Source of the DNA: Tistrella mobilis
Lineage (GTDB): Bacteria > Pseudomonadota > Alphaproteobacteria > Tistrellales > Tistrellaceae
NCBI RefSeq assembly: GCF_041468085.1
Contig: NZ_CP121017.1
Span: 3,657,501 to 3,721,500, forward strand
Length of the DNA: 64,000 nt
Direction of reading: 5' to 3'
This document shows, in pieces, positions 2,781 through 33,265 of the stretch. A program made the translations under genes and the position numbers. Each line of letters begins with the position of its first letter. Within the stretch, counting starts at the first letter, position 1. The notes under the pieces are model-generated. The model was not told the origin of the DNA. It made no database searches and saw only the letters and a list, made by a program, of their open reading frames with translations.

Positions 2781-3990
<1,210 letters not shown>

Positions 3991-28715: not shown

Positions 28716-29987
28716 TCAGCGCTCCAGCATGTCCCGCACCCGGTAAGCCTCGATCATCGCGGTGGCATAAAGCGGGTGCAGGCCGTGCACCGGCATCGGC
28801 TTGATGGCCGAGAGCGCCAGCGGCAGCGGGTTGGCGGCATCCAGCAGATGCACGCCGATCGCCCGGCCCATGGCGCTCGCCAGCGCCACGCCGCGGCCGT
28901 TATAGCCGAGCGCCATGGTCACGCCCGCCGCCGGCTGGTGGATATGCGGCAGGTGATCGCGGGTCATCGCCACCCGTCCGGCCCAGCGAAAACCCACCGG
29001 CAGGCGCGCGGCTTCGGGATAGAAGGCGGCGAGCGCCGCCTCGATCCGGCGATAGTCGGTGGCATCCCGCGGCTCGCGGAAGGCGCCGCGCCCGCCCATC
29101 ATCAGCCGGCCCTCGGGGCCGATGCGGAAGTAGTTCGCGATCCGCCGGCTGTCGGAAACCACCGGCCGCCCCGGCAGGATGCGGGCCAGCAGATCCTGGG
29201 GCAGCGGCGCCGTCGCCACCTGAATGCTGTTGGCGGGGATCACCGTCGCCTTCAGCCCGGGCCAGAGCCGGCCGGTATAGCCGTTGGTCGCGATCACCAC
29301 CTGGCCCGCCGTCAGCCGGCCGCCATCGGCGAAGCCCAGCACCCAGCCGCCGGTGCCTCTGGCGATCGAGACCGCCTCGGCGTCGCGGAAAATCTCCGCC
29401 CCGGCCTCTAGCGCCGCCCGGGCCAGGCCGCGGGCATAGGCGAGCGGATGCACGCTGCCGCCGCGGCGATCGATCCAGCCGCCGACGAAGCCCCGCCCGC
29501 CGGTTGCAGCCGCCATGCCCGCGGCATCGAGCATGTCGACCGCGGCCCCGCGCGCCCGCCACTGCGCCATGCGGCTTTCCAGCCGCGGCAGGTGCAGATG
29601 TTTCACGCTGGCCTGGATCCAGCCGCCACGCACCGGATCGCAGTCGATGCCAAGCTCGTCGATCAGCGAGAACACCAGATCGGCGGTGCCGCCGGCAAAG
29701 GCGGTGGTCGCCTCGCCGAACACCCGGTCGAGCGTATCCGGATCGTCCTTCAGCCCCGGGATCACCTGGCCGCCATTGCGGCCGCTGGCGCCGAAGCCGG
29801 GTTCGACCGTATCGACCACGATCACCGAAGCCCCGCCCCGGGCAAGGGTCAGCGCCGCGACCAGCCCGGTGAACCCGGCCCCCACGATCGCGACATCGGC
29901 CCGTCGCTCGCCGGTAAAGGCAGGCAGATCAGGCCCCGGCGCCGCAGTGGCAGCCCAGACGGAAGCGGCAGGAGAGAAGGATGGCAT
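28716..29987 (-). CDS. FAD-dependent amine/amino-acid oxidoreductase (PuuB/DAO type)
   Basis: 423 residues. The FAD fingerprint VAIVGAGFTGLVAALTLARGG lies near residues 30-50 (quoted in part: GAGFTGL), followed by GFGASGRNGGQV, the DAO-family region where flavin and substrate meet, and the C-terminal LGYNGRGVALASAMGR. The sequence resembles gamma-glutamylputrescine oxidase and related oxidases. It is encoded just after an amino-acid ABC importer, with an XRE-cupin (PuuR-like) regulator beyond, so import and oxidation of an amine or amino acid is a fair inference. ATG 29987 gives the usual N-terminus. Confidence 0.88.
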   Translation of the reverse strand: MPSFSPAASVWAATAAPGPDLPAFTGERRADVAIVGAGFTGLVAALTLARGGASVIVVDTVEPGFGASGRNGGQVIPGLKDDPDTLDRVFGEATTAFAGGTADLVFSLIDELGIDCDPVRGGWIQASVKHLHLPRLESRMAQWRARGAAVDMLDAAGMAAATGGRGFVGGWIDRRGGSVHPLAYARGLARAALEAGAEIFRDAEAVSIARGTGGWVLGFADGGRLTAGQVVIATNGYTGRLWPGLKATVIPANSIQVATAPLPQDLLARILPGRPVVSDSRRIANYFRIGPEGRLMMGGRGAFREPRDATDYRRIEAALAAFYPEAARLPVGFRWAGRVAMTRDHLPHIHQPAAGVTMALGYNGRGVALASAMGRAIGVHLLDAANPLPLALSAIKPMPVHGLHPLYATAMIEAYRVRDMLER

Positions 29988-30018: not shown

Positions 30019-30750
30019 CTAAACAGGGTGGGTGACGCGGCGGAGGAAGTCCTGCGTGCGCTCGTGGCGCGGATTGCGCAGCACCTCGGCCGCCGGGCCC
30101 TGTTCGACGATCCGGCCGCCATCCAGGAACAGCACGGCGTCGGCGACCTCGCGGGCGAACTGGATCTCGTGGGTCACGACCAGCATGGTCATGTCTTCAT
30201 CGGCCAGAGAGCGCATCACCTGCAGCACCTCGCCGACCATTTCGGGGTCGAGCGCCGAGGTCGGTTCGTCGAACAGGATTGCGTCGGGCCGCATGGCCAG
30301 CGACCGGGCGATGGCCACCCGCTGCTGCTGCCCGCCCGACAGCGCGCCCGGATAGGCATGGAACTTGTCGGCCAGCCCCACCCGCGCCAGCAGCGCCTCG
30401 GCGCGGGCGCGGACCTCGGTTGCAGGCTCCCGCAGCACGTGGATCGGGCCTTCCATCACGTTTTCCAGCGCCGTGCGATGGGGAAACAGGTTGAAGCGCT
30501 GGAAAACCATCGACACCCGGGTGCGCAGCGCATGGATGGCCGGGCCATCGGCATCGACCAGGGCGCCGTCGATGGTGATCCGGCCGCGCTGATAGGTCTC
30601 CAGCCCGTTCACGCAGCGCAGCAGGGTCGATTTGCCGGAGCCCGAGGGGCCGATCAGACAGACCACCTGGCCTTTGCCCACCTCGGCATCGATGCCTTTC
30701 AGCACCTCGTGGCTGCCATAGGATTTGTGCACGTCCTGGAAGCGGATCAT
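30019..30750 (-). CDS. Polar amino acid ABC transporter ATP-binding protein
   Basis: 243 residues. Walker A GPSGSGKST, the family segment MVFQRFNLFPHRTALENV, signature LSGGQQQRVAIARSLAM and Walker B ILFDEPTSALDPE are all present, followed by VTHEIQFAREVAD. Its ATG (30750) overlaps the permease stop in ATGA. It energises the importer formed with the two genes upstream. Confidence 0.96.
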   Translation of the reverse strand: MIRFQDVHKSYGSHEVLKGIDAEVGKGQVVCLIGPSGSGKSTLLRCVNGLETYQRGRITIDGALVDADGPAIHALRTRVSMVFQRFNLFPHRTALENVMEGPIHVLREPATEVRARAEALLARVGLADKFHAYPGALSGGQQQRVAIARSLAMRPDAILFDEPTSALDPEMVGEVLQVMRSLADEDMTMLVVTHEIQFAREVADAVLFLDGGRIVEQGPAAEVLRNPRHERTQDFLRRVTHPV

Positions 30751-31403
30751 CGCGCCTTCCCCATCCGAAGTTCGACCCGGCGCATGACCATGTTCAACGG
30801 GATGGTCAGGCACAGATAGAGCAGCGCCACCAGGGTGAAGACCGTCATGTTGTCGAAGGTGGACGAGGCCAGCATCTTGCCCTGCATGGTCAGCTCCGCC
30901 ACCGAGATGACCGAGACCTGCGAACTGTCCTTCAGCAGCATGACCAGGTTGTTGGCATAGGGCGGCACCACGATCCGGAAGGCCTGGGGCAGCACCACCC
31001 GGCGCATCATCAGCGGCCGGCGCATGCCGATCGATTTCGCAGCCTCGATCTGGCCCTTGTCCACCGCCTCGATACCGGCGCGGAAGGTCTCGCCGATATA
31101 GCAGGAATAGGTCAGCGCCAGCCCGATCACCCCGGCCTGAAAGGCGGTGAGATCCAGGCCGATCTCGGGCATCACGAAATAGATGTAGAACAGGATGACC
31201 AGGATCGGGATGCCGCGCACGAACTCGACCAGGATCCGGGTCGGCACCGCCAGGGCCTGAACGCCCGACGTCCGCAGCAGCGCCCAGACCAGACCGAGCA
31301 GGGTGGCGAGGCACAGCGCCAGCAGGGTCACCGCCACGGTCCGCCACATGCCTTCGAACAGCAGCGGCATGTATTCGGCGGATCGGGTGAGGAAGTCGCT
31401 CAT
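30747..31403 (-). CDS. Polar amino acid ABC transporter permease
   Basis: 218 residues with five hydrophobic segments. The HisM/GlnP family pattern is clear: TLLALCLATLLGLVWALL at the N-terminus, EFVRGIPILVILFYIYF, and the EAA loop EAAKSIGMRRPLMMRRVVLPQA. A single permease gene is present, so a homodimer is expected. It lies between the binding protein (125 bases upstream) and the ATPase. Confidence 0.95.
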   Translation of the reverse strand: MSDFLTRSAEYMPLLFEGMWRTVAVTLLALCLATLLGLVWALLRTSGVQALAVPTRILVEFVRGIPILVILFYIYFVMPEIGLDLTAFQAGVIGLALTYSCYIGETFRAGIEAVDKGQIEAAKSIGMRRPLMMRRVVLPQAFRIVVPPYANNLVMLLKDSSQVSVISVAELTMQGKMLASSTFDNMTVFTLVALLYLCLTIPLNMVMRRVELRMGKAR

Positions 31404-31500
31404 CGAAGATCCCCGGGTGGTGGTAAGCCGGTTGTCGGAGCGGGGGGCGTCAGGCGGGCGGGCTCCCCGTCCCGCCGCCCGATGCCCGCCCGGATCGCGT

Positions 31501-31560
31501 TTGCGAAGATCTTCGCAAATCGGGGATCTTACAGCCCGTATTTTGCGAAGATCTTCGCAA
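31501..31560. repeat. Two exact copies of an 18-bp palindrome at the 3' end of the binding-protein gene
   Basis: TTGCGAAGATCTTCGCAA occurs at 31501-31518 and 31543-31560, 42 bases apart start to start. The second copy is inside the coding region of the amino-acid binding protein (it encodes part of LAKIFAK); the first is just past its stop. Each copy is a perfect palindrome. Confidence 0.95.
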
Positions 31561-32275
31561 GCTCGCCGCTCTCCTTCAGCTTCGCGATCGCGGCGTTGAC
31601 CTTCTCCAGCAGGGCCGGGTTCTCCTTCGACACCGCCAGCGCCACATCGCCCGCCTTCAGCGGCTGATAACCCTCGACCAGGCGCAGGCCGATCTTGGGG
31701 TTCTGGGCGATCTGATAGGCCACGATCGGTTTGTCGCCGAAGCCGGCCTTGATCCGGCCCAGCTTCACGTCGCGCATGATGTCGGCGATGCTGTCATAGA
31801 GTTTCACCTCGCCGAAGGTACCGCGGGCGTTGAGCGCATCGGCGAAGGTGGTGCCGACCTGGGCGCCGATGGTGGCGCCCTTCAGATCGTCCAGCGTGTA
31901 GTTCGCCGGCTCGTCCGCCGGCACGAACATCGCCTCGCCATAGGTGTAGACCGGGGCCGAGAAGTCCACGACCTCGCGCCGCTTGTCGGTGGCGAGCATG
32001 CCGGCCGAGATCAGGTCGATCTTGCCGGTGGTCAGCGACGGGATCAGCGCCGAGAAGGCGACCACCTCGAATTCGGTGGCAAGACCCGCCTCGGCCCCGA
32101 TCGCCTGGGCCAGATCGACCATCGCGCCGGTCGGCTGCTGGCTCGACGTGTCGACGAAGGTGAAGGGCACGCCCGTCGTGGTCACGCCCACCTTCACCGT
32201 GTCCGCCGCGAAAGCCGGCGCCACCGCGCCGATGGCCAGTGCCGTGATCGCGGCGGCAAGCGTCTTCAGCCTCAT
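31529..32275 (-). CDS. Amino acid ABC transporter substrate-binding protein
   Basis: 248 residues, SBP_bac_3 family. A signal peptide ends near AFA-AD (residue 23). VKVGVTTTGVPFTFVD and SALIPSLTTGKIDLISAGM are typical of polar amino-acid binders, and the Arg in KRREVVDFSAP binds the ligand carboxylate. ATG 32275 has AGGGGA upstream. The C-terminal codons lie in a duplicated palindrome. The ligand is unknown; the neighbouring oxidase and PuuR-like regulator hint at an amine-related amino acid. Confidence 0.94.
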   Translation of the reverse strand: MRLKTLAAAITALAIGAVAPAFAADTVKVGVTTTGVPFTFVDTSSQQPTGAMVDLAQAIGAEAGLATEFEVVAFSALIPSLTTGKIDLISAGMLATDKRREVVDFSAPVYTYGEAMFVPADEPANYTLDDLKGATIGAQVGTTFADALNARGTFGEVKLYDSIADIMRDVKLGRIKAGFGDKPIVAYQIAQNPKIGLRLVEGYQPLKAGDVALAVSKENPALLEKVNAAIAKLKESGELAKIFAKYGL

Positions 32276-32632
32276 GAAATGTCCCCTGTTCGTTGTCCTG
32301 CCGACCATCGCAGGGCGCCGCGGCGCCGGGCTCCCCCCGACGACCGCCCATGCCACCGGCAGTCCCGTGCTGGTGGCGCAGACCCCCGCCCTGCGATGCG
32401 GATCGGCTTCGGCGTTGACTGATTTTCATCGTAGTGAAATTATCGAGGGGCGCAATGAAATTGGTCAGCCGATTTCATTTTCGTGAAAAGACCTGCACGA
32501 CAGGCGATTCCGTTCGCCTGCCGCGGTGATTACCGGCGGCCGGGGCGCCGCGGAACGCATGGTCGGGCTGGAAATTCGTGAAAAAATATGGCCCTCCTTT
32601 CAACGAAGTGAACCTGAAGGTATCCGCCACCG
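32276..32632. promoter_or_regulatory. Divergent control region with three TTTCA-N6-TGAAA operators
   Basis: Three copies of the same inverted repeat: 32424-32439 (TTTCA, TCGTAG, TGAAA), 32473-32488 (TTTCA, TTTTCG, TGAAA) and 32598-32613 (TTTCA, ACGAAG, TGAAC). A larger repeat, AATGAAAT (32454-32461) with ATTTCATT (32472-32479), overlaps the second. The region lies between the importer genes (minus) and the XRE-cupin regulator (plus), the likely binder. The third copy is 20 bases from the regulator start and would allow self-repression. Confidence 0.7.
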
Positions 32633-33265
32633 ATGACACCCCCTGAGTCGCCCCCGGCGCCCGTCCCAGAGCCGGCCCCTGTTGCAGAGCCGCAGACCGA
32701 AGAGGACGATCTCAGCCTCGGCCTTGCCGTGCGCCGGGCGCGTCAGGCGCGGGGTCTGTCGCTGAAACAGGTGGCCGATGCCGCGAATGTCTCGGTGGGC
32801 TTTCTCAGCCAGATCGAGCGCGGGATCTCTTCGCCCTCGGTCCGCGCGCTCAGGGCGATCTGCGCCATTCTGGACGTGCCGGTGCTGGAACTGCTGGGCG
32901 GCGGCGAGGCCGACCCGAACAACGAGGCCCGGCGCATCGTTCGCGCCGGCCAGCGCCGCCGGGTCGATTTCGGCGACAAGGGCATGGTGAAGGAGTTCCT
33001 GACCGTCCACGATCAGGGCCTGCTTCAGGTGATGGAGCTGACCCTCGACCCCGATGGCGGCTCGGGCGAGGACGCCTATACCCATGAAGGCGAGGAATGC
33101 GGCGTGGTGCTGGAGGGCCGGCTGGAGCTGTATGTCGACGGCGCGGTCTACCGCCTGGGCGAGGGCGACGCCTTCCATTTCGAAAGCGCCTCGCCGCACA
33201 AATTCCGCAACCTCGCCAATGGCCGCACCCGGATTCTGTGGATCACCACCCCGCCGGTCTGGTGA
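32633..33265 (+). CDS. XRE family transcriptional regulator with cupin domain (PuuR-like)
   Basis: 210 residues. After a Pro-rich tail (1-22) an HTH_3 domain covers about 30-85 (GLSLKQVADAANVSVGFLSQIERG, in part). A C-terminal cupin_2 domain (about 130-205) has EGEECGVVLEGRLELYVDG and EGDAFHFESASPHKFRN. The architecture is that of PuuR and relatives, which sense small amines or amino acids through the cupin. It probably controls the divergent importer and oxidase through the repeated TTTCA-N6-TGAAA sites. Confidence 0.93.
   Translation: MTPPESPPAPVPEPAPVAEPQTEEDDLSLGLAVRRARQARGLSLKQVADAANVSVGFLSQIERGISSPSVRALRAICAILDVPVLELLGGGEADPNNEARRIVRAGQRRRVDFGDKGMVKEFLTVHDQGLLQVMELTLDPDGGSGEDAYTHEGEECGVVLEGRLELYVDGAVYRLGEGDAFHFESASPHKFRNLANGRTRILWITTPPVW

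Follow-up and report, generated by a model that had tools for sequence, protein, structure and literature searches.

In the 64,000-nucleotide stretch of DNA analysed here (the window), a local, autoregulating XRE-cupin repressor would very probably block the promoter of an amino-acid-type importer and a FAD oxidase by way of three palindromes that lie between its own gene and theirs. What can be established at the level of sequence is that the sites exist, are conserved, go together with the regulator gene and overlap a conserved promoter-like element; from the conservation we infer that the regulator binds them, and we further infer repression, cooperation between the two sites named S1 and S2 below, autoregulation and an inducer. 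The locus comprises the following genes.

28716..29987, minus strand: FAD-dependent oxidoreductase, DAO family (domain match; conserved; start assumed to be the ATG at 29987)
30019..30750, minus strand: ABC ATPase, amino-acid type (domain match; conserved)
30747..31403, minus strand: ABC permease, BPD_transp_1 (domain match; conserved)
31529..32275, minus strand: substrate-binding protein (SBP), SBP_bac_3 (domain match; kept adjoining the regulator)
32633..33265, plus strand: XRE-cupin regulator, 210 aa (HTH_3 and Cupin_2 above cut-off)

The regulator has the architecture of its class, an N-terminal Cro/CI-type helix-turn-helix (HTH_3, 53.6 bits against a cut-off of 23) and a C-terminal cupin (Cupin_2, 68.1 bits against 27.2), and the genes for the SBP, permease, ATPase and FAD oxidoreductase are all divergent from it. 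The closest named model of the FAD oxidoreductase is the L-pipecolate oxidase AmaA (271 bits, under its cut-off of 600), and the best solved relatives of the SBP are glutamine-type binding domains and AncQR, which together suggest that the substrate of the importer is amino-acid-like. The other neighbours scanned were a CoA-ester-lyase-like protein and an EamA transporter.

Some features of the operon and its location were observed apart from the intergenic region. A 19-base palindrome, TTTGCGAAGATCTTCGCAA, occurs twice, at window 31500-31518 (after the SBP stop and before the permease) and at 31542-31560 (in the last SBP codons), and T. mobilis has both copies as well. If folded into a hairpin, the sequence could hold SBP expression above that of the permease. 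T. mobilis (L021, about 3135-3388) further carries some 220 extra bases of GC-rich repeat between the ATPase and FAD oxidase genes, which the window lacks, and has the locus on the 84-kb plasmid pTM4 (NC_017959.1) as against a 4.9-Mb contig in the present genome, a difference that suggests plasmid integration or replicon fusion.

The candidate operators lie between the SBP and regulator genes.

32264..32279, no strand: possible fourth site, CTTCAGCCTCATGAAA; one mismatch, over the SBP start codon
32424..32439, no strand: candidate operator S1, TTTCATCGTAGTGAAA; exact TTTCA-N6-TGAAA, overlapping the predicted importer -10
32473..32488, no strand: candidate operator S2, TTTCATTTTCGTGAAA; exact TTTCA-N6-TGAAA
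32598..32613, no strand: candidate operator S3, TTTCAACGAAGTGAAC; one mismatch, adjoining the regulator gene

The preliminary description had reported three repeats with identical half-sites, which holds for S1 and S2 but not for S3, where the right half-site is TGAAC and departs from TTTCA-N6-TGAAA at a single position; the core common to all three is TTCA-N6-TGAA. Its geometry was borne out, the starts of S1 and S2 being 49 bp apart and S3 ending 19 bp before the regulator ATG at 32633. Sites with at most one mismatch to TTTCA-N6-TGAAA number seven in the whole window against 0.13 expected from shuffles, and the three core sites of the intergenic region compare with none in 19,924 and one in 76 of 20,000 shuffled sequences. 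The fourth site may be a by-product of the coding sequence, and a counterpart at the SBP start is also present in Paramesorhizobium and Marinobacterium. A lone half-site, GTGAAAAAATA (TTTTTTCAC on the other strand), lies at window 32570-32585 and is kept in T. mobilis; it stands without a partner at the usual spacing.

Scanning genomes for relatives of the regulator yielded T. mobilis pTM4, Paramesorhizobium, Stappia, several Roseobacteraceae and two Marinobacterium, with a more distant relative in Stella, and plasmid records contributed two Sagittula and one Alloyangia; a search of 398 Pseudomonadota genomes and the family of G017 returned no further close ortholog. All of these loci except that of Stella have kept the importer and FAD oxidase genes divergent from the regulator. 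From Alphaproteobacteria to Marinobacterium the regulator stands together with the SBP, permease, ATPase and FAD oxidase genes. This conserved set agrees with the regulon of importer, FAD oxidase and regulator that had been predicted from the window. The CoA-ester-lyase-like gene downstream of the regulator is present there in Tistrella only, and was dropped as a regulon member.

The proposal had been staked on the motif recurring upstream of orthologous loci and passed that test, three sites being found at equivalent relative positions in every orthologous region examined: 18 of 18 alignment rows, or 17 of 17 distinct regions including the window (the upstream sequences of G001 and T. mobilis pTM4 are identical), which represent only a handful of independent lineages, the rows of Tistrella and of Roseobacteraceae not being independent of each other. 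Core sites over the 18 rows total 61, with the additional ones over certain SBP starts counted in, whereas shuffled sequences gave an expectation of 0.16 and at most 3; flanking sequence contains 0.045 core sites per 440 bp. TTCA and TGAA are invariant across all three sites, while the flanking letters and spacers vary, a common form in Roseobacteraceae being CTTCA...TGAAG. S1 and S2 are separated by 49 bp in Tistrella, Paramesorhizobium and Roseobacteraceae, by 50 in Stappia and by 84 in Marinobacterium; the distance from S2 to S3 varies between rows. Judged by this comparison of sequences, the three palindromes are a genuine operator family. The Stella relative (L032) has no TTCA-N6-TGAA, and about 60-80 bases before the regulator match it carries GAGTTCAATTGGATTGAACTC, in which the half-sites of the core are set 7 bases apart; this may be a variant in spacing.

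Positions 9-10 vary in S2 and S3, but in S1 T9-A10 is invariant, the exception among the variable spacers, because these two letters are the TA of a predicted -10 element. The predicted importer promoter, assigned by consensus, is placed as follows.

32428..32433, minus strand: predicted importer -10, TACGAT; inside S1, TANNNT in all rows
32450..32455, minus strand: predicted importer -35, TTGCGC; 16-bp spacer to the -10, TTG in all rows

On the importer strand every row has a -35 of the form TTGNNN, a 16-bp spacer and a -10 of the form TANNNT, with the predicted -10 hexamer occupying positions 7-12 of S1 in each orthologous row. The palindrome in the core promoter of a neighbouring transport gene that marks the XRE-cupin class is thus seen here through conservation, with S1 on the predicted -10. 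A conserved promoter for the regulator gene that could be linked to S3 was also sought, and none could be fixed.

Taken together, these observations lead us to propose that the XRE-cupin protein encoded at 32633-33265 uses the three palindromes as its operators. It would bind as a dimer with each subunit reading one half-site. Occupied S1, lying over the -10 of the divergent importer/FAD-oxidase promoter, would exclude RNA polymerase; S2, 49 bp upstream on the importer promoter, would probably boost occupancy via a second dimer; and S3, before the regulator gene, would provide autoregulation. The imported and oxidised amino-acid- or amine-like compound, or its product, would bind the cupin domain and release the repressor. 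Cooperation between S1 and S2 is uncertain, since their distance grows to 84 bp in Marinobacterium and the S2-S3 spacing varies.

That the palindromes arose by chance or as a by-product of base composition is a negligible prospect: single TTCA-N6-TGAA sites do exist elsewhere in the genome, mostly within reading frames among the matches listed, but the shuffles argue against this origin and conservation in distant relatives refutes it. Given that binding of the sites by the XRE-cupin protein is a prediction, it might be supposed that another, unrelated factor binds them and controls the operon, which we consider very improbable. Every row has one site before the regulator gene, and the motif is missing from two homologous importer/oxidase operons that are without this XRE-cupin regulator, those of Caballeronia and Pseudomonas oryzihabitans, where no core site was found in 15 kb. 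(In P. oryzihabitans, L065 4569-4750, the same operon has an IclR-type regulator gene divergent from it, as if one regulator had been exchanged for another.) Moreover, a search from DNA alone for pairs of core sites spaced by 48 to 50 bp, made in 385 alphaproteobacterial genomes, gave matches in six, namely three Tistrella (the same locus), two other places, of which one is within a binding-protein-like gene and one has no relatives of these genes nearby, and L069, another XRE-cupin/importer locus whose regulator, SBP and permease are 37%, 54% and 57% identical to those of the window and which has two core sites rather than three.

A regulator that acts on these sites could instead be an activator or have a dual role, with S2, at about -60, serving to recruit RNA polymerase in the presence of ligand and S1 modulating. 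Positions upstream of the -35 are frequent binding places of activators, and S2 occupies such a position, keeping a constant 49-50 bp to S1 throughout the alphaproteobacterial rows. Repression is not certain, moreover, because the XRE-family protein NceR is termed an activator in a title in the reference list of PMC12724383. On the other hand, the location of S1 on the -10 in every row fits exclusion of the polymerase, S2 is 84 bp from S1 in Marinobacterium, and all seven measured P. aeruginosa XRE-cupin regulons are repressed (PMC7901475). We therefore regard activation or a dual role as unlikely, and retain repression as the preferred reading.

The reach of the motif may be local. Of 19 more distant XRE-cupin loci, none has a core site in the 450 bases upstream, and the 53%-identical L039 has a single core site upstream. 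In its own genome there are four exact sites, two at the locus, one where a uvrA-like gene ends and one upstream of a CorA-like gene, and 42 with at most one mismatch; of the 17 looked at outside the window most fall within likely reading frames. A wider genomic regulon was rejected on the sites covered, although a further target may exist beyond the core sites listed. Three Tistrella genomes share the exact site upstream of the CorA-like gene, yet it overlaps an apparent -35 (TTGCCT-N17-TAAACC) and stands alone, and was not counted as an operator.

The regulator had been called PuuR-like, a label that stands as a distant resemblance only. PuuR is its best NCBIfam match, and E. coli PuuR likewise joins a helix-turn-helix to a cupin. 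However, the window regulator scores 79.3 bits against the PuuR equivalog NF007408 and its relatives 79 to 94, under the cut-off of 211, where E. coli PuuR itself scores 385.5. E. coli PuuR controls putrescine genes, with puuP, puuA, puuD and puuC surrounding puuR, whereas none of the scanned neighbours of the window regulator belongs to the putrescine pathway, and TTCA-N6-TGAA was not found in the E. coli puu region. Membership of PuuR was thus rejected on score, on neighbours (no gamma-glutamyl-putrescine pathway genes) and on operator.

Parallels are found among characterised XRE-cupin factors, which the published work describes as local repressors acting at palindromic core-promoter sites (PMC7901475, PMC12724383); in P. 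aeruginosa these regulators hold down metabolic genes next to their own from core-promoter sites, and wherever a motif could be derived it was a palindrome (PMC7901475). DbuR of Pseudomonas putida, an XRE-cupin protein that represses the dbu D-amino-acid oxidase operon, shares with the window locus the divergent XRE-cupin gene, oxidase and transporter targets and a footprinted palindrome over the predicted -10 (PMC12724383), but its footprint contains one palindrome of another sequence, AATTCTCATATATTAGAATT, where the window locus has three sites, along with a complete ABC importer. PsdR of Pseudomonas aeruginosa is likewise an XRE-cupin protein with a short palindromic operator that represses adjacent uptake and catabolic genes (PMC10965056, PMC7901475); it differs in its targets, which are peptide uptake genes, and in its operator, TTAAG-N5-CTTAA (PMC10965056), as against the TTCA-N6-TGAA core. 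By analogy, then, the window locus is taken to operate like the P. aeruginosa XRE-cupin regulators, PsdR and DbuR.

No report of TTCA-N6-TGAA as an operator was found in the open-access literature, and the operator sequence looks new; the type of switch is already well known. More tentatively, and with somewhat less than an even chance of being right, we suggest that the regulator and its operon represent an undescribed orthologous XRE-cupin group of Alpha- and Gammaproteobacteria, with a three-site operator at which two dimers at near-fixed distance would act jointly on a promoter with an operator-embedded -10, and which would sense an amino acid or amine that has yet to be linked with a protein of the XRE-cupin class.

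For an uncharacterised regulator, the analysis supplies a testable predicted binding sequence and a small, well-defined set of targets. It also makes the system recognisable in genomes from DNA alone, as the spaced pair that led to the XRE-cupin/importer locus L069 illustrates. The identity of the inducer would show on what substrate marine and soil bacteria use this conserved importer and its FAD oxidase.
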